Source of the DNA: Chamaesiphon sp. 336R_metabinner_41
GTDB lineage: Bacteria > Cyanobacteriota > Cyanobacteriia > Cyanobacteriales > Chamaesiphonaceae
Assembly (NCBI GenBank): GCA_025359915.1
Contig: JANYDE010000155.1
Coordinates: forward strand, 1 to 37,167
DNA length: 37,167 nt
Direction of reading: 5' to 3'
The notes below the pieces were generated by a model that was given only the letters and a program-made list of their open reading frames with translations, was not told the origin of the DNA and searched no databases. Positions 28,368-37,167 of this stretch are shown piece after piece. A program made the translations under genes and the position numbers. Within the stretch, counting starts at the first letter, position 1, and every line of letters starts with the position of its first letter.

Positions 28368-31300
28368 ATGACTATAAAAAGTGCCGAATTCCATCTCGCT
28401 GGCTATCGTGTAATTGAGGAGATAGCCCGAAATCCAACAACTGTGGTGTATCGCGCTCTAGTTGATGGATTGGAGTTGGGGGCAGAAAATAGTACTGTAA
28501 TTATTAAACTATTGTCATCGGTAGATCCCACTGCTCAAGAGTTGGTTAATTTTTGTAATCAGTATACGATCTCTAAAAATCTAGAGTTACCAGGAGTAGT
28601 GCGGGTATACAGTCTAGAAGAATTCGGTACTGCGCTCTCCCACCGTGGTTACGCGCTCATGATGGAGGATTTTGGGGGTGTATCCTTAGATTTGTATAGT
28701 CAAGAGTTTGACCTAGCCTTACCTGATGTGTTGAAGATTGCGATTCAACTTGCGGATACTCTACAGGCGATCGGACAGCAGCGAATTGTTCATAAGGATA
28801 TCAAGCCGTCGAACATCTTAATTAATCCTACCACTAAACAGGTGAAGTTAATTGACTTTGGGATTGCGTCACTATTACCCCGCGAAAGTGCCGAAATTCT
28901 ACATCCCAATCAGTTAGAGGGAACCCTCGCCTATATCTCGCCAGAGCAGACAGGGCGGATGAATCGGGGGATTGATTATCGGACTGATTTTTATGCGTTG
29001 GGAGTGACTTTATACCAACTGCTGACTGGTAGATTGCCGTTTGAGACGGAAAACTCGATCGAACTAGTTCATTGTCATCTAGCACAGATGGCAATCCCAG
29101 TACATCGCGTCAAGCCAGATCTGCCTGTAATCATCTCCCAAATTGTCGCTAAACTGATGGCGAAAAATGCCGAGGATCGCTATCAAAGTGCTTTGGGCAT
29201 TAAATATGACCTGAATGAGTGTTTGCGGCAGTTGCAGCAGACAGAATCTATCTGTGAATTCACAATTGGACAGCGGGATCTTAGTAAGCAATTTGTGATT
29301 CCCGAACGACTTTATGGGCGAGAAATGGAGGTAAAAATCTTGATTGAAGCCTTCAATCGAGTTGCCACAGGGAGGAGTGAATTGATGTTGGTGACTGGAT
29401 CTTCAGGGATTGGCAAAACTGCGGTAATTAATGAAATTCACAAACCGATTGTCAAACAACGTGGTTATTTTATTAAAGGTAAATATGACCAATTCAATCG
29501 CAACATTCCGTTTAGTGCTTTGGCTCAAGCCTTCCAAGATTTAATCGGACAACTCTTGAGTGAAAGCGATGTCGAATTAGCTGATTGGAAGAAGCAAATT
29601 CTGGCGGCTGTGGGGGAAAATGGTCAAATTTTATTGGAAGTAATTCCTGAATTAGCCCAAATTATTGGTGTTCAATCACCTACCGCTGAACTATTGGGGA
29701 TGGCTGCACAGAATCGGTTTAATTTGTTATTTCAAAAGTTTGTCGGGGTATTTACGACGGCGGAGCATCCTTTAACAATTTTTCTTGATGATTTGCAGTG
29801 GGCGGATTCTGCTTCGTTGAAATCGATCGAACTATTGCTCTCAGGTACGGGATATTTATTACTATTGGGAGCCTATCGAGATAACGAAGTGTCTCAAGTT
29901 CATCCATTAATATTGACACTCCAACAGTTAGCAAAAACAGATGCAATTTTCAAGAAGATCCTCTTAACACCATTGGCGATTGAAGATACCAATCAATTGA
30001 CTGCTGATACATTAAATTGCGATTTGGATACAGCAAAACCGCTGACAAAATTGATCGATCTTAAAACTAAAGGTAATCCCTTTTTTACGGCTCAGTTTCT
30101 GAAATCATTGCACACAGATGGTGAGATTACATTTAATCCTGATGGCTATTGGGAATGCGATCTCGCCAGGATCCAATCTTTGTCAATCACTGATGATGTC
30201 GTAAAATTTATGGCAGAACAGTTGGAGAAATTGCCGAGCAAAACTAAACAAATAATCAAACTAGCTGCTTGTATTGGTGACAGATTCGATCTAGATACGA
30301 TCAAGACTGTCTCAGAACAATCTCATCTCAATACTGCTACCGCACTATGGCAAGGATTGCAATCAGGGTTGATTTTACCGACTAGTCAATTATACAAGTT
30401 TAATCAGGATTTACCGGATTTGGAGGATTTAGAGGATTATGTTGATGGTGTGAATCGGATGCCCCACAAGTCATTATTATCTTTTTCGCTTTCTTCCAAC
30501 TCATCTTACCGTTTCCTGCACGATCGAGTGCAGCAAGCGGCATACTCTTTGATTCCTGAGCAGCAGAAACGGAGTACTCATTTACAAATAGCCCGATTAT
30601 TGTCTGCAAATACGCCCAATCTTTACCAGTCAGATCGACTGCTGGAAATCGTCAATCACTACAATCTGGTGATGGATTTACAGCCAGAGATGAAGATTGA
30701 TTTAATTGATGAACTCGCAGAACGTCAACAGCTAGCGAAACTAAACTTACTAGCTGCTCAGAAAGCCAGAGCTTCAACTGCTTACGCTGCTGCCTTTAAC
30801 TATGCACAGACGGGTGCAAAAATTCTCGGATCGATCGGTTGGAAAACAGCATATCAGCTTACTCTCAACCTGCATGAAATTCTCGCTGAAGCCGCCTTTC
30901 TCAATGGGGACTTAGCCACAGTCTCGATCTGGACTCAAGCAGTCTTAGATCGTGCTCAGACCCCCTTAGATCGCGTTAAAACTTATCAGACGATCGTCCA
31001 ATTTCATCTGCTCCAAAAACAGTATCAAGAGGCGATCGATCGAGGCGTAGAAATTCTCCGTCAATTGGGGATTAAATTATCGCCCCAGCCGAGTAAATTA
31101 GTCGTAATTAGCGAATTAGCCAAAACGAAGATCGGGATTTGGGGTAAGTCCAACGCCGATTTATTAGCGATACCAGAAACAGTCGATCCTGCTCACACCG
31201 CGCCATTGCAGATTTTAGAATCGTTGATGACTCCAGCGTTCTTTGTATCCGAAGAACTGATGGTAGTTTTGGCAACAACGGGTATTCATCTGACCTTGCG

Positions 31301-32360
31301 GCATGGGAATACACCATGGGCAGGGAGTTTTTATCAAACTTATTCGATCGTCCTGGCAAGTTTAGAAGAATTAAACCAAAGTTATCAGATGGGACAAATG
31401 GCAAATGTGTTGAGCGATCGCTTTGGTAATTTGGCAATGACAGCTAAAATCAAAGCTGCTGGGCCGTGGTTTTCCCAACTATGGCAAGAAGATTTTCGGG
31501 CGGGGATTCCGATCGTCGATGAGAGTATTGGGATGGCGATGGAAAGTGGTAATATTACCTTTGTGGGAATGTGTGCTTATACTTCGATCTTGCTCAGATT
31601 TCATGCAGGTCTTCCCTTAGATGAAATCGCGGATCGAATCCTAGAGATCGAGCAAATTATCGTTCAATCTAAAGATGAATCCAGTTTGCAATTATTTAAG
31701 ATCGAACACCAACGAATAGTCAATTTACAGCAAGCCTCCAGGACACCTTATCAAGTGTTTGACAGCGAACTGGATGAGCAGATGGAGATTGCCAAATGGC
31801 AACAGAATAATGAAGTCAATCCGTTATCAGCACTATATGGTGTAAAAATAGTATTGGCTTATATCTTTGACGATATGCCTGCGGCGTTAAGCTATACAGA
31901 TACTGCATTAGCCTACCCGAGAACTGGCATTGCCAGGGCTTGTATTTTTGATGCGCTCATCCGATTAGCAGTCTATCCTCACCATAGCGATCGAGTCAAA
32001 ACCCAACTACTCAAACAAGTCTCTGATACTCAAGCTAAATTGGCGAAACGGGCGAAATTAATGCCCGGAAATTTTCAGCATAAATACGATTTAGTTACCG
32101 CCGAAAAATGTCGAGTGTTGGGCGATTTTACCACTGCAATCGAACTATACGATCGATCGATTGCTGGAGCCAAAGCGAATAAGTATCTCCAAGAAGAAGC
32201 CATCGCTAATGAATGTGCGGCTAAGTTTTACCGCGCTTGGGGTAAGGAAAATATGGCAGCTACTTATATGCAATCTGCCTACTATTGCTATGCGCGATGG
32301 GGAGCCAAAGCTAAAACTGACGATTTGGAACGACGCTATCCCGAATTGCTGAGGGGATAG
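28368..32360 (+). CDS. Ser/Thr kinase-AAA ATPase signalling protein, paralogue 1 (no histidine kinase)
   Basis: Protein of 1330 residues. Residues 10-290 are a Hanks-type kinase domain with a degenerate Gly loop (EEIARNPTTVVYRA), Lys47 in VIIKLL, HKDIKPSN (Asp144) and LIDFGIAS (DFG 163-165), GTLAYISPEQTGRMNR. From about 312 (ERLYGREME) an AAA/STAND-like ATPase has Walker A GSSGIGKT (344-351) and Walker B IFLDDLQWAD (471-480). The rest to 1330 is helical repeat, TPR-like (ECAAKFYRAWGKENMA, DDLERRYPELLRG at the end). Large cyanobacterial kinases of this family usually continue into GAF and histidine kinase domains; this one stops at the end of the repeat region. A tandem paralogue follows, and a foldback element starts 10 bp after the stop. 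Confidence 0.92.
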   Translation: MTIKSAEFHLAGYRVIEEIARNPTTVVYRALVDGLELGAENSTVIIKLLSSVDPTAQELVNFCNQYTISKNLELPGVVRVYSLEEFGTALSHRGYALMMEDFGGVSLDLYSQEFDLALPDVLKIAIQLADTLQAIGQQRIVHKDIKPSNILINPTTKQVKLIDFGIASLLPRESAEILHPNQLEGTLAYISPEQTGRMNRGIDYRTDFYALGVTLYQLLTGRLPFETENSIELVHCHLAQMAIPVHRVKPDLPVIISQIVAKLMAKNAEDRYQSALGIKYDLNECLRQLQQTESICEFTIGQRDLSKQFVIPERLYGREMEVKILIEAFNRVATGRSELMLVTGSSGIGKTAVINEIHKPIVKQRGYFIKGKYDQFNRNIPFSALAQAFQDLIGQLLSESDVELADWKKQILAAVGENGQILLEVIPELAQIIGVQSPTAELLGMAAQNRFNLLFQKFVGVFTTAEHPLTIFLDDLQWADSASLKSIELLLSGTGYLLLLGAYRDNEVSQVHPLILTLQQLAKTDAIFKKILLTPLAIEDTNQLTADTLNCDLDTAKPLTKLIDLKTKGNPFFTAQFLKSLHTDGEITFNPDGYWECDLARIQSLSITDDVVKFMAEQLEKLPSKTKQIIKLAACIGDRFDLDTIKTVSEQSHLNTATALWQGLQSGLILPTSQLYKFNQDLPDLEDLEDYVDGVNRMPHKSLLSFSLSSNSSYRFLHDRVQQAAYSLIPEQQKRSTHLQIARLLSANTPNLYQSDRLLEIVNHYNLVMDLQPEMKIDLIDELAERQQLAKLNLLAAQKARASTAYAAAFNYAQTGAKILGSIGWKTAYQLTLNLHEILAEAAFLNGDLATVSIWTQAVLDRAQTPLDRVKTYQTIVQFHLLQKQYQEAIDRGVEILRQLGIKLSPQPSKLVVISELAKTKIGIWGKSNADLLAIPETVDPAHTAPLQILESLMTPAFFVSEELMVVLATTGIHLTLRHGNTPWAGSFYQTYSIVLASLEELNQSYQMGQMANVLSDRFGNLAMTAKIKAAGPWFSQLWQEDFRAGIPIVDESIGMAMESGNITFVGMCAYTSILLRFHAGLPLDEIADRILEIEQIIVQSKDESSLQLFKIEHQRIVNLQQASRTPYQVFDSELDEQMEIAKWQQNNEVNPLSALYGVKIVLAYIFDDMPAALSYTDTALAYPRTGIARACIFDALIRLAVYPHHSDRVKTQLLKQVSDTQAKLAKRAKLMPGNFQHKYDLVTAEKCRVLGDFTTAIELYDRSIAGAKANKYLQEEAIANECAAKFYRAWGKENMAATYMQSAYYCYARWGAKAKTDDLERRYPELLRG

Positions 32361-32361
32361 A

Positions 32362-32673
32362 GTATTTGGGCTGATTGACGGACAAAACTCCTGAAACCTC
32401 CAAAACTGGTAGGTTGGGTAGCGGATGCGCTCCGGTCGGGTTCCCCGACCATGGAAGCGCACCAAGCAGAGCGATAGCGAAACCCAACATCCGCACAAAC
32501 ACCCTAGAAATGTTGGGTTTCATTCTTCTGCTTGGTGCGCTGTCTTGAAAAGGTGCTCTACTTGGGGAAACCCCAAGACCGCACTTTTCGCTAAACCGTC
32601 GGGAAACCCGACGAGCGCGCATCCGCAACCCAACCTACCGAAAAAAGATTTGTCCGTCAATCAGGTATTTGGG
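32362..32673. mobile_element. foldback MITE-like element, copy 1 (294 bp plus 9-bp target repeats)
   Basis: The element runs from 32371 to 32664 and has perfect 16-bp terminal inverted repeats, CTGATTGACGGACAAA at the left and its complement at the right. It is flanked by the direct repeat GTATTTGGG at 32362-32370 and 32665-32673, a probable target-site duplication. Inner arms also pair: GGTAGGTTGGGT (32409-32420) with ACCCAACCTACC (32628-32639), GCGGATGCGC (32421-32430) with GCGCATCCGC (32617-32626), and GCGCACCAAGCAG (32457-32469) with CTGCTTGGTGCGC (32528-32540). It has no transposase gene, so it would be non-autonomous. Copy 2 lacks the paired extra segments 32421-32469 and 32528-32626. 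Confidence 0.85.
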
Positions 32674-32760
32674 TGGTCTCATTCAAGAAAATAAAAATGC
32701 AACAATTCTTGTACTTTGTCATCAACTACTCTACAAAACCAGGAGATAAAATTATCAGCA

Positions 32761-35700
32761 ATGATCGCAACAAAATTTAAATTTAATCTCTCTAACTATT
32801 GGATAACTGAGCAACTTTATTGTGACGATAAAACGGTAGTATATCGAGCAAAGCAAACAGGATTAAAGTTGAATGGAAATCCTCGGACTATCGCGATCAA
32901 GCTATTCTCATCTACAGCCCCTACTTATCAAGATTTGGTCAATTTTCGCCATCAATATACGATTCTCCAGGGGAGAGGCTCCGCCAACGCTAAAAATATA
33001 AATTTACCAGGTGTTGTCCGTGTATACAGCATAGAAGAGTTCGACTGTAATTATGCTCTAGTGATGGAAGATTTTGGGGGGATATCTCTAGCCACCTATA
33101 CCAACAATTGTCTGTTGCCTATCCCTGATCTGCTAAGTATTGCTATCCAAATTACGGACACTCTACACGCACTGGGACAACAGCAAATTGTCCACAAAGA
33201 CATTAAACCAGCCAATATTTTAATTAATTCTACCACCAAACAGGTGAAGCTAATTGACTTTTCGATCGCATCCAGATTGCCGATCGAAACGCAAGATATC
33301 CTCAATCCCAATCAGTTAGAAGGAACCCTTGCTTATATCTCTCCAGAGCAAACAGGGCGGATGAATCGGGGGATTGATTATCGGACTGATTTTTATGCTT
33401 TGGGAGTCACCTTATATCAACTCTTGACTGGCAAATTGCCGTTTGAGCCTAAAGATCCACTCGAATTAATTTATTGTCATTTAGCGCAGATCGCCGTGTC
33501 AGCAGATCTAGTCAATCCAGATGTCCCCGTAGTTGTCGCGCAGATTGTCGCTAAACTAATGGCAAAAAATGCCGAAGATCGCTATCAAAGTGCCTTGGGT
33601 ATCAAATTTGACCTAGAGGAGTGTTTGAGGCAGTGGCAGCAGCTAGGAGCGATGACTGAGTGGCAGATCGGACAGCGAGATTTGAGCGATAGATTTATTA
33701 TTCCCGAACAACTCTACGGGCGAGAATCTGAGGTACAAACTTTGCTAAATGCTTTTGCTCGTGTTAGTCAAGGGCAAACTGAACTAATCCTAATTGCTGG
33801 ATCTTCGGGGATTGGCAAAACCGCCGTCATCAATCAAATTCACAAACCGATCGTCAAACAACATGGATACTTTATCACAGGTAAATACGATCAATTCAAT
33901 CGGAATATTCCCTTTAGTGGTTTGATTCAAGCTTTCCGAGATTTAATCAGACAACTTCTGAGCGAAAGTGATGCCAAATTAGCTGATTTGAAGAGCCAAC
34001 TTATCGCAGCCGTAGGGAAAAATGGTCGAGTTTTGCTAGAAGTGATTCCCGAATTAGAGCAGATCGTTGGCTCTCAACCACCCGTCGTCGAACTGGTGGG
34101 AACGGCGGCAAAAAATCGGTTCAACATGTTATTTGAAAAGTTTGTGCAGGTATTTACGACGGCGGAGCATCCCTTAACTATCTTTTTGGATGATTTACAG
34201 TGGGCGGATTCTGCTTCGCTCAAATCAATCGAACTATTACTCTCCGGTACGAGATATCTATTGCTATTGGGAGCATATCGAGATAATGAAGTTTCCCAAT
34301 TTCACCCATTAATATTGACACTGGGGCAATTGCAAAAAACAGAGCCGACGATCCAAACAATTACTCTCGCCCCCTTGAAGTTAGACGATACGAATCGATT
34401 AGTTGCTGACACATTGCACTGTGCCAGCGACAGAGCTAAACCGCTAACGGAATTAATCAATATCAAAACCCAAGGTAATCCCTTTTTTATCACTCAGTTT
34501 CTCCAAGCTTTATATACCGACGATGCAATTTGGTTTAATACCGAAGGCTATTGGGAATGCGATCTGGTGCGGGTTCAAGCCTCATCAACTACCGATGATG
34601 TGGTGGAATTTATGGCAGAGCAGTTGCAGAAATTGCCTGCGAAAACCCAACAAGTGCTTAAATTAGCTGCCTGTATCGGTGATAGATTCGATCTGGAGAC
34701 TCTCGCGATCGTTTCCGAGCAATCGCCACTCAGTACCGCTACCGCATTATGGCAAGGATTGCAGGCGGGGTTAATTTTGCCAACGAGCCAAATTTATCAG
34801 CTCTATTCGCAAAATGCGACGCTACGCGAACAGGATTTACCGGATGTGGAGGATTACGTCGATCGGGTGGATCGCTTTCCCCACGCTTCATTATTATCTT
34901 TTGCGCTTTCTGCCAGCTCATCTTACCGCTTCCTGCACGATCGAGTCCAGCAAGCCGCCTACTCGCTGATTCCTCAAAGTCACAAGCAGAGTACTCACTT
35001 ACAAATTGGCAAATTACTGTTAGCCAATACCCCCGCAGCAAAACAATCAGCAAGACTGTTTGAGATCGTCAATCATTTTAATATCGCAACAGAGCTACTG
35101 CCAGGATCGATCGATCTACAAATGCTGGCTCAACTTAATCTCGATGCCGCCCAAAAAGCTAGAGCCTCAACTGCTTATGTTGCTGCCTTTAGCTATGCTC
35201 AGATTGGTACTAAACTGCTGGGAGAGTTGGGATGGAAACAGCAATATCGGCTAACTTTAAACCTTCACGAAACTCTCGCTGAAGCTGCCTTGCTTAATGG
35301 CGACCTTGAAATAGTCCCGAAGCTAGCCCAAGTAGTCTTAGATCGCGTCCAGCACCCCTTAGATCGAGTTAAAACCTATGAGACGATCGTGCAATGTCAC
35401 TCACTCCAGAAACAGTATCAACAGGCGATCGATCGGGGTGTAGAAATCCTCCGCCAGTTAGGTGTTAGATTATCACTCCAAACCAATAAATTTATTCTGC
35501 TTCAAGAATTGACTAAAACTCAAATTGCCTTGTGGGGTAAATCAACCGAACAATTATTAGCATTACCAGAGATCTTTCATCCAGCAAAAAGATCCCCATT
35601 GCGGATTTTGGATCTGTTGTTGATGCCAGCTTTCTTTTCTTCGCGAGAATTGATGGTGGTTTTGGCGACAACGGGTATCCGCCTAACTTTGCGGGATGGG

Positions 35701-36753
35701 AATACTCCTTGGGCTGCTAGTTTTTATGGAACTTATGCGATCGTTTTGTCGGAGCTAGACAAATTGCAACAGAGTTATCAGCTTGGGCAACTGGCAATGG
35801 TATTAGCCGATCGATTTGGCGATTTGGCGATCGTAGCAAAGGGTAAAGCTACCTTACCTTGGTTTTCGCAATTATGGCAACAGAATTTTCATAGTGTGAT
35901 TGCGACGGCGGATGAATGTATCCCAGCGGCGATCGATAGTGGTAATCTGACTTTTCTAGGGATCGGTGCCTATACTTCAATGCTGATCAGGTTTTATGCT
36001 GGTATTCCCTTGAATGAAATCGCCGCTAAAATTCCCGAAATCGCCCAAGTTATTGCCCAATCAAAAGATGAATCTAGCCAGCAATTATTCGATCTCTATC
36101 AGCAAAGAATCGCCGATCTACAAGCAACTACCACTACGCCAGCGGATCTATTATGCGATGATCGAGATGAGCTATTGTTAATCGACAGGCGACAAGATGG
36201 CGAAATCAGTCCATTGTTAGCTACAATTTGCGGCGGAAAAATGATGTTAGCTTATTTATTTGAAGATATTCCGGCTGCTTTAAACTATGCCGATAACTTA
36301 CGGTTATACAAAATTACTGGTATTGCCCAAGCTTCGATCATCGATGCCCTGATCCGATTGGCTGCTTATCCCGACAGTGACAAGCGATTCCAGCAACAAC
36401 TAATCAAGCAAGTTAACTTGATTCAACGCCAGTTATTAAAACGCGCGAACTTGATGCCAGGAAATTTTCAGCATAAATACGATCTAGTTACTGCCGAAAA
36501 ATGTCGAGTACTCGGCGATTTCACCACCGCAGTCGAATTGTACGATCGATCGATTGCTGGAGCCAAAGCGAATAAGTATCTCCAAGAAGAAGCCGTCGCG
36601 AATGAATGTGCGGCTAAGTTTTACCGCGCTTGGGGTAAAGAAAACATTGCGGCTACTTATATGCAGTCAGCCTACTATTGCTATGCTCGATGGGGAGCTA
36701 AAGCTAAAACCGACGATTTGGAGCGTCGCTATCCTGACTTGTTGAGGGGGTAG
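32761..36753 (+). CDS. Ser/Thr kinase-AAA ATPase signalling protein, paralogue 2 (no histidine kinase)
   Basis: Protein of 1330 residues from ATG 32761; an upstream in-frame TTG (32716) is rejected because ATG 32761 aligns with the start of paralogue 1 and gives the same length. Domain order is as in paralogue 1: kinase domain with Lys47, HKDIKPAN (Asp147) and LIDFSIAS, where the DFG Gly is Ser168; AAA part with GSSGIGKT and IFLDDLQWAD; TPR-like helical region ending DDLERRYPDLLRG. An extra eight residues near 70-78 (QGRGSANA) are absent from paralogue 1. Parts of the DNA are nearly identical to paralogue 1, others quite diverged. The protein again ends before any GAF/histidine kinase part, and a second foldback element starts 9 bp after the stop. 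Confidence 0.92.
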   Translation: MIATKFKFNLSNYWITEQLYCDDKTVVYRAKQTGLKLNGNPRTIAIKLFSSTAPTYQDLVNFRHQYTILQGRGSANAKNINLPGVVRVYSIEEFDCNYALVMEDFGGISLATYTNNCLLPIPDLLSIAIQITDTLHALGQQQIVHKDIKPANILINSTTKQVKLIDFSIASRLPIETQDILNPNQLEGTLAYISPEQTGRMNRGIDYRTDFYALGVTLYQLLTGKLPFEPKDPLELIYCHLAQIAVSADLVNPDVPVVVAQIVAKLMAKNAEDRYQSALGIKFDLEECLRQWQQLGAMTEWQIGQRDLSDRFIIPEQLYGRESEVQTLLNAFARVSQGQTELILIAGSSGIGKTAVINQIHKPIVKQHGYFITGKYDQFNRNIPFSGLIQAFRDLIRQLLSESDAKLADLKSQLIAAVGKNGRVLLEVIPELEQIVGSQPPVVELVGTAAKNRFNMLFEKFVQVFTTAEHPLTIFLDDLQWADSASLKSIELLLSGTRYLLLLGAYRDNEVSQFHPLILTLGQLQKTEPTIQTITLAPLKLDDTNRLVADTLHCASDRAKPLTELINIKTQGNPFFITQFLQALYTDDAIWFNTEGYWECDLVRVQASSTTDDVVEFMAEQLQKLPAKTQQVLKLAACIGDRFDLETLAIVSEQSPLSTATALWQGLQAGLILPTSQIYQLYSQNATLREQDLPDVEDYVDRVDRFPHASLLSFALSASSSYRFLHDRVQQAAYSLIPQSHKQSTHLQIGKLLLANTPAAKQSARLFEIVNHFNIATELLPGSIDLQMLAQLNLDAAQKARASTAYVAAFSYAQIGTKLLGELGWKQQYRLTLNLHETLAEAALLNGDLEIVPKLAQVVLDRVQHPLDRVKTYETIVQCHSLQKQYQQAIDRGVEILRQLGVRLSLQTNKFILLQELTKTQIALWGKSTEQLLALPEIFHPAKRSPLRILDLLLMPAFFSSRELMVVLATTGIRLTLRDGNTPWAASFYGTYAIVLSELDKLQQSYQLGQLAMVLADRFGDLAIVAKGKATLPWFSQLWQQNFHSVIATADECIPAAIDSGNLTFLGIGAYTSMLIRFYAGIPLNEIAAKIPEIAQVIAQSKDESSQQLFDLYQQRIADLQATTTTPADLLCDDRDELLLIDRRQDGEISPLLATICGGKMMLAYLFEDIPAALNYADNLRLYKITGIAQASIIDALIRLAAYPDSDKRFQQQLIKQVNLIQRQLLKRANLMPGNFQHKYDLVTAEKCRVLGDFTTAVELYDRSIAGAKANKYLQEEAVANECAAKFYRAWGKENIAATYMQSAYYCYARWGAKAKTDDLERRYPDLLRG

Positions 36754-36915
36754 GGTTTGGGGCTGATTGACGGACAAAACTCCTAGAACAACCAAAATTG
36801 GTAGGTTGGGTTGCGCGTAGCAAAACCCAACAAACATACAAATACTAGAAATGTTGGGTTTCATTCTTCAACCCAACCTACCCGAAAAGATTTGTCCGTC
36901 AATCAGGGTTTGGGG
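36754..36915. mobile_element. foldback MITE-like element, copy 2 (144 bp plus 9-bp target repeats)
   Basis: The element runs from 36763 to 36906 with the same 16-bp terminal inverted repeats as copy 1 (CTGATTGACGGACAAA / complement) and is flanked by the direct repeat GGTTTGGGG at 36754-36762 and 36907-36915. The left repeat begins at the base after the stop codon of paralogue 2. Inner arms GGTAGGTTGGGTT and AACCCAACCTACC, and AACCCAACA / TGTTGGGTT, make it a long hairpin. It is the compact form of copy 1. The inner part is like a repeat I recall as very common between cyanobacterial genes. Confidence 0.85.
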
Positions 36916-37045
36916 TTTGGGCTACTACCGTTTACACAAGTCTGTTTGAGATGATGCGGAGATCTTTACCCCACCTCATTCCTCCCCTTAGAAAGGGGAG
37001 GAGGTAAAGCCCCCCCCTTATAAAGGGGGGGTTGGCAGGGTGGTT
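36916..37045. repeat. intergenic hairpin repeats
   Basis: Two hairpins are adjacent: CCTCCCCTT-AGA-AAGGGGAGG at 36981-37001 and CCCCCCCTT-ATA-AAGGGGGGG at 37011-37031. They form an inserted stretch relative to the region after copy 1, since TGGTTTCATACAAGAAAA at 37041 resembles TGGTCTCATTCAAGAAAA at 32674. No gene is seen. Confidence 0.65.
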
Positions 37046-37076
37046 TCATACAAGAAAAGAATAATGTCAAAACCCT

Positions 37077-37167
37077 AGTTCTTAGTCTTCAAACGCCCTC
37101 TGCGAAGGCAGACGCTACGCGAACAAATGAATTTGGGGCTAAGAGCGAAAGTCCACTGAAGTGGACT
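37077..37167. repeat. window-end repeats
   Basis: CTCTGCGAAGGCAGACGCTACGC (37090 onward) is a GC-rich dispersed repeat of the type seen near 1811. The last 18 bases, AGTCCACT-GA-AGTGGACT (37150-37167), form a perfect 8-bp hairpin that may continue past the window edge. No coding sequence is supported between 36754 and 37167. Confidence 0.5.

Follow-up and report, generated by a model that had tools for sequence, protein, structure and literature searches.

The contig end analyzed here raises the question of how two foldback elements with the same ends came to lie directly behind the stop codons of two paralogous genes. The window, which is the whole stretch of DNA that was analyzed, is one contig of 37,167 nucleotides from Chamaesiphon sp. 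336R_metabinner_41, whose genome comprises 4.23 Mb in 169 contigs. The features discussed below are listed in Table 1.

Table 1. Features at the end of the window.
Feature	Positions	Strand	Details
Gene A	28368-32360	+	1330 aa; Pkinase and AAA_16; TAG stop 32358-32360
Left target-site repeat of c1	32362-32370	no strand	GTATTTGGG
c1	32371-32664	no strand	294-bp MITE; ends 32371-32386 and 32649-32664; extra nested hairpins, mostly common to C11
Right target-site repeat of c1	32665-32673	no strand	GTATTTGGG
Decayed end of an unrelated multicopy IS	32671-32685	+	GGGTGGTCTCATTCA; overlaps right target repeat of c1
Gene B	32716-36753	+	1345 aa from TTG 32716 (ATG 32761 also possible); TAG stop 36751-36753; paralog of gene A
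Left target-site repeat of c2	36754-36762	no strand	GGTTTGGGG
c2	36763-36906	no strand	144-bp MITE; ends 36763-36778 and 36891-36906
Left GTAG-tagged REP in c2	36801-36831	+	GTAG + GTTGGGTT ... AACCCAAC; read from sequence
Right GTAG-tagged REP in c2	36853-36881	-	exact match to 29-mer
Right target-site repeat of c2	36907-36915	no strand	GGTTTGGGG
End of another multicopy IS	37038-37167	+	GGGTGGTTTCATACA...; contig breaks off there

The elements, their genomic family and its target sites

Both elements carry exact 16-bp inverted CTGATTGACGGACAAA ends. A search of the window for this end, allowing up to three mismatches, gave four matches against 0.38 expected, a number reached by none of 100 shuffles. 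Copy 1 (c1) and copy 2 (c2) have these ends in common and differ in their interiors. The 9-bp direct repeats that flank them are identical at nine of nine positions within each copy, and differ between the copies at three of nine. They begin 1 bp (c1) and 0 bp (c2) past the two stops. The preliminary description had reported two foldback elements with shared ends and differing perfect repeats, placed behind paralogous genes. All of these features are present, and the coordinates and the protein alignment bear out the placement. Both elements are too short to encode a transposase, and in the ORF list only mechanical ORFs of 89-117 aa overlap c1. An Rfam search of the window at the gathering threshold gave no matches. 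Judged by sequence, c1 and c2 are MITEs.

The family is larger than these two copies. The source genome contains 22 family ends, 20 of them exact, one with a single mismatch (C71) and one with two (C155). Sixteen ends pair into eight complete insertions and six are lone right ends. Four of the eight insertions (c1, c2, C11 and C117) are contiguous in the assembly. For the other four, contigs break off inside near-complete copies, and the insertions were put together again from these contig ends, each left flank being equal to one right flank over 9 bp. All eight copies have 9-bp target repeats, perfect in seven and matching at 8/9 positions in C11. Perfect repeats also flank the three complete copies of a congener (G005). 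The genome-wide check for such repeats that the preliminary description had proposed finds them at 11 of 11 complete insertions in the two genomes (ten perfect, one 8/9); they vary from copy to copy and so are not part of the element consensus. Empty sites were observed as well.

Several other ends were kept apart from these sets. The family count does not include five own-genome ends with two mismatches (C57, C89, C111, C147 and C165), of which C89 is similar to an IS-like end of G005 (77% over 81 positions) and the other four look unrelated. G005 has 12 ends at one mismatch or fewer, of which six belong to its three complete copies and six were excluded from the target test. Two-ended elements of other genera with no clear 9-bp repeats (L034, L036 and L165, for example) also lie outside the 11 sites.

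The exact full-MITE pattern (132-162 bp), which misses variants such as those of G005, occurs in three of 388 genomes of the order, namely the source genome, G014 and G021. A plasmid search with c2 returned two Nostoc records that match in the core only, neither covering 80% of c2. Carriage on viral contigs was considered and rejected: 19 viral stretches contain an exact 16-mer (G or T form) with no second end nearby at up to two mismatches, and they were judged chance matches because the only second end lies 7.8 kb away (L181).

Some copies have unusual arrangements. Between c1 and C11 (L002 1501-1746), parts of the hairpins are flipped, namely a loop (GAAAC / GTTTC) and an inner segment that is inverted; inversion at hairpins would be expected to give such differences. 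At one copy with a lone right end (L004 1458-1688), the flanking direct repeat measures 43 bp with one mismatch, well in excess of 9 bp. In G014, one T-type element (L159 1391-1745, contig C66) holds three units of about 112 bp, each opening with CTGATTGACTGACAA(A/G). A second kind of element with an exact CTGATTGACGGACAAA end is found at two contig ends of G005 (L051 1501-1641 and L137 1-141), and is possibly an autonomous partner or another MITE.

Analysis of the 11 target sites did not support the TTTGGG preference suggested earlier. This motif is found at c1 and c2 and at none of the nine remaining sites, and was rejected as a general target. GNTYWRANC is the Tn5 target consensus. The mean score against it is 6.2 at the 11 sites compared to 4.5 for random 9-mers of the window (z 4.4 for the mean), and the outer positions are G or C in 11/11 sites at position 1 and 10/11 at position 9 (chance of at least 21/22 about 1e-6, assuming 46% G+C), with both the motif and the G/C test picked after the sites were known and 11 sites in all. 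A weaker, Tn5-like target preference thus appears to be present.

A source for the transposase

The ends led to candidate partners in other genomes. The query was the transposase from a 1401-bp IS of G034, an element with ends that differ by one or two bases from those of the MITEs. This query matches 20 of 40 relatives at E<=0.001, a count that includes G034 and the source genome and many distant matches. A plasmid of Pseudanabaena ABRG5-3 (NZ_AP017561) carries a 1310-bp IS bounded on both sides by CTGATTGACTGACAAAAG, with a repeat that matches at 8/9 positions. The IS of Acaryochloris marina MBIC10699 (A. marina; NZ_AP026079) is 1361 bp long, and its 10-bp repeat is perfect. More distant complete IS are found in G025, G029 and G030. 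Nine loci were tested, six of them transposase loci already known to have such ends and three of four plasmid loci. Ends and repeats are found in six of the nine (L191, L193, L075, L077, L079 and L080), both ends and no scored repeat in two (L192 and L076), and one end in L078. The repeats of the complete IS are 9-10 bp, and measure 10 bp instead of 9 in four of the six with a scored repeat. Target repeats in the MITEs and in the complete IS are both about one helical turn in length.

The encoded proteins point to the IS4 family. PF01609 scores above its cut-off in the transposases of the relatives, and Pfam reported no other transposase domain. The IS4 model NF033591 is the best match and stays below its cut-off of 152, with 90.6 (a G034 fragment), 138.9 and 128.4 bits. 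The Y(2)R(3)E(6)K signature is described as an IS4-family hallmark in PMC2266710. Among the two proteins read, it is complete in that of Pseudanabaena, and has Q at its last position in that of A. marina. No solved structure matched the transposase from Pseudanabaena with an E value of 1 or below. The same source tabulates CW------Y---CA-A--W- as the end signature of the IS50 subgroup (PMC2266710). Compared by eye, both MITE ends fit it at seven of seven fixed positions; the looser IS10 signature (CT, 9 bp) also fits them.

Closer to home, the congener G006 has an exact end CTGATTGACGGACAAAAG located 21 bp from a C-terminal transposase remnant, which is 55% identical over 87 aa to the Pseudanabaena protein and has one internal stop. 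The assembly of the source genome yielded five transposase fragments only, 30-35% identical, and no intact transposase gene with G-type ends. No such ends were found at up to three mismatches near four of the five fragments, several of which reach contig ends. Since repeats break assembly, the partner could be missing from it. The preliminary description had suggested that an IS with the same ends supplies the transposase. This is supported at the level of the family, whose complete IS have ends that differ by a base or two, and the search of this assembly gave no intact partner. Because nearly the same ends are found on complete IS with an IS4-family transposase, such an enzyme probably mobilizes the MITEs in trans, and c1 and c2 would have been moved by a transposase of this type.

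Placement behind paralogous stop codons

Genes A and B both encode a kinase and an AAA_16 domain, and their proteins share 907 of 1347 residues (67%). Nucleotide identity in 40-codon windows is 0.53-0.85 over most of the length, and rises to 0.93 and 0.89 across the final 73 aligned codons. The last 306 bp (32055-32360 and 36448-36753), a boundary picked by eye, are identical at 276/306 positions, compared to 213/351 in the preceding stretch. This suggests that the tail was homogenised by gene conversion. Among the relatives of gene B is a Chamaesiphon MAG with 57% identity. Both genes end earlier than most relatives: among 12 of 20 relative loci read, nine run on for 486-779 codons, and the exceptions stop after 12 codons (L056), stop after 32 (L062) or are cut by a contig end (L057).

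A single insertion, either inherited from the ancestral gene or spread by gene conversion of the 3' end, with divergence afterwards, would place both elements at one position. Their insertion points do fall in the same aligned column behind the paralogous stops, and the genes appear homogenised over their last ~300 bp. However, inheritance would need matched changes on both sides of the elements, given that the 9-bp repeats differ between copies and not within them. Each copy is also nearer to copies elsewhere than to the other. The identities are 236/246 for c1 and C11 and 127/137 for c2 and C24/C41, compared to 124/144 for c1 and c2, and c1 shares most of its extra hairpins with C11. The sequences next to the two right repeats are unrelated, and the protein divergence suggests that the genes are much older than the near-identical element ends. 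We therefore regard a single insertion as quite unlikely. Two separate insertions, as the preliminary description had proposed, are favoured because the copies belong to different sublineages, their repeats differ and are internally perfect, and their right flanks are unrelated.

Further out, the right flanks of c1 and c2 have a similarity score of 28, which none of 300 shuffles reached. Common ancestry of the two copies was dropped as its explanation, since the block that matches belongs to the end of a different multicopy IS. The IS end that is decayed beside c1 starts in an intact version 122 bp past the right repeat of c2, and at many other places. The end 15-mer of the IS at the contig break has 33 genome matches at up to one mismatch, compared to one for the reversed control.

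By rough judgement, without computation, it would be very unlikely for two insertions placed uniformly at random to fall at homologous spots of this kind. This improbability would be reduced by the combination of similar 3' ends, a preference for certain targets and tolerance of insertion after stops. Counting neighboring ORFs of at least 90 aa on either side, as called mechanically, three of the 11 sites lie 0-2 bp past a stop, and six lie within 24 bp of one. The gap to the preceding stop is 1 bp for c1, 0 bp for c2, 2 bp for C79/C5 and 24 bp for G005:C57, and for two further sites the nearby stop belongs to an ORF on the opposite side, at distances of 23 and 24 bp. Such ORFs are absent from nine of the 11 sites. 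Of the others, C69/C139 lies close to the 5' end of an ORF with a called start that is perhaps set too far upstream, and the opening 3 bp of an ORF fall within the target of C41/C28.

The same placement could mean that the elements are kept as 3'-end hairpins, either terminators or mRNA stabilisers, and that this role explains the paired positions. The RNA folds of c1 and c2 are far more stable than those of shuffles (z -14.05 and -5.12, respectively). But the inverted repeats alone account for the fold, and selection against insertions in genes also predicts placement behind stops. A terminator scan gave one match only, on the minus strand inside gene B (36711-36728), compared to 0.6 in shuffles, and no terminator tail was found at c1 or c2. 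As the scan located no terminator-like site at the two elements despite their strong folding, the 3'-end role put forward earlier is unsupported by the sequence, and we consider it unlikely. An effect of c1 on gene B is possible given its position between the two genes, 96 bp ahead of ATG 32761. Separate insertion remains the preferred reading, with near-coincident sites that would reflect target preference and tolerance behind stop codons.

The REP core and comparison with known systems

Between the ends, c2 contains two GTAG-tagged REP sequences that are inverted relative to each other. For the 29-mer taken from the right REP, the genome has 47 matches at up to three mismatches, compared to none for the reversed control. 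A family end lies no more than 130 bp from 16 of the 47, and the remaining 31 have none so close. Of the 30 loci read, 11 are end-linked and 19 are not; an inverted partner no more than 120 bp away is found in 10 of the former and 12 of the latter, some of the end-linked loci being two sides of one copy type and so not independent. Some free REP copies appear by eye to have decayed ends adjoining, which makes the count of truly free copies uncertain. In other genera, similar REP pairs lie inside CTGATTGACTGACAAA-type ends in G038 (L044) and, less regularly, in G021 (L048). An element of G009 (L034) has nearly the same ends and lacks the REP, and several G014 elements contain other inner repeats.

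The large number of REPs beyond 130 bp of any end, with inverted partners at most such loci read, would fit a REP pair that is itself the mobile unit, moved by a RAYT (Y1) transposase, with the CTGATTGAC ends as passive flanks. A RAYT-like gene is present in C15 (44.1 bits, cut-off 80). Yet the target repeats abut the CTGATTGAC ends and not the REPs in all 11 complete copies. Nor are 9-bp target repeats expected of Y1 enzymes. Moreover, the GTAG palindromes near the Y1-type genes differ from the core REP: one is located about 0.6 kb upstream of the C15 gene, and C155 has others near a broken Y1 gene, with about 60 bp or less between the gene and one of them. No RAYT gene flanked by the core REP was found at the seven Y1_Tnp loci of the genome, searched with a 12-mer at up to one mismatch as far as 1.5 kb or the contig end; one of them holds the REP, 1.3 kb off. 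Movement of the pair by a RAYT enzyme is thus very unlikely. The palindromes GTAGGGGCAATTCATGAATTGCCCCTAC and a variant near the Y1-type genes (L240 693-720 in C15; L241 878-1114 in C155) perhaps represent a second GTAG REP family in this genome.

We tentatively suggest, as a possibility short of an even chance, that a GTAG REP family with no adjacent RAYT gene spreads inside IS4-type (DDE) ends, its doublet having been repackaged as a MITE. Repackaging would have occurred repeatedly, since ends of this type enclose similar pairs in two or more further genera (G038 and G021). If true, this is a second dispersal route for REP sequences, independent of Y1 transposases. The portions of open PMC papers available to us contained no description of a REP pair within IS4-type ends.

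For the locus as a whole, it is quite probable that c1 and c2 are non-autonomous MITEs with IS50-like ends of the IS4-family type, moved in trans and inserted separately, with a REP pair as payload. An IS4-family DDE transposase, acting in trans, would recognize the 16-bp inverted ends. It would cut the element out, presumably in a cut-and-paste mode, and join it to a staggered 9-bp cut, which would produce the 9-bp repeats. Two copies would have inserted in this way at nearly the same place, behind paralogs with a present-day 3'-end identity of ~90%. The inverted pair of GTAG-tagged REPs would be their payload, enclosed by the ends of the element. This interpretation would tie an orphan cyanobacterial MITE to a transposase family, and provide a clear case in which an IS4-type MITE entered homologous sites on two occasions. 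It would also make a single mobile unit out of two classes of repeats, IS4-type MITEs and REP pairs. Should that unit be mobile, some REPs may spread without depending on RAYT enzymes.

The elements resemble the IS4 family and IS50 (Tn5) in their end signature, 9-bp target repeats and Tn5-like target preference. Their complete relatives have PF01609, and one of two read has the full YREK signature. Unlike IS4-family elements, c1 and c2 have no transposase, and the repeats of complete relatives are mostly 10 bp. They also resemble the cyanobacterial MITEs Nezha and those of Anabaena sp. 90, which are short, multicopy and mostly intergenic, with inverted ends and strong hairpins; the likeness to Nezha is one of description and not of compared sequences. 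For the MITEs of Anabaena sp. 90, PMC3542288 reports no IS with similar ends in that genome. In contrast, the ends described here match an IS4-family group in other genera.

The core is like GTAG REP dimers, or REPINs, in that two GTAG-tagged palindromes face each other with their tails outward. GTAG REPs are known in cyanobacteria, and many GTAG-15 dimers of A. variabilis are described as lying inside long palindromes of another sequence (PMC3733652). These dimers are a precedent for the layout. Unlike REP dimers and REPINs, the pair here is enclosed by ends of the DDE-transposon type. Among these known systems, the case is mostly ordinary in mechanism, and its REP-pair cargo is the unusual part.
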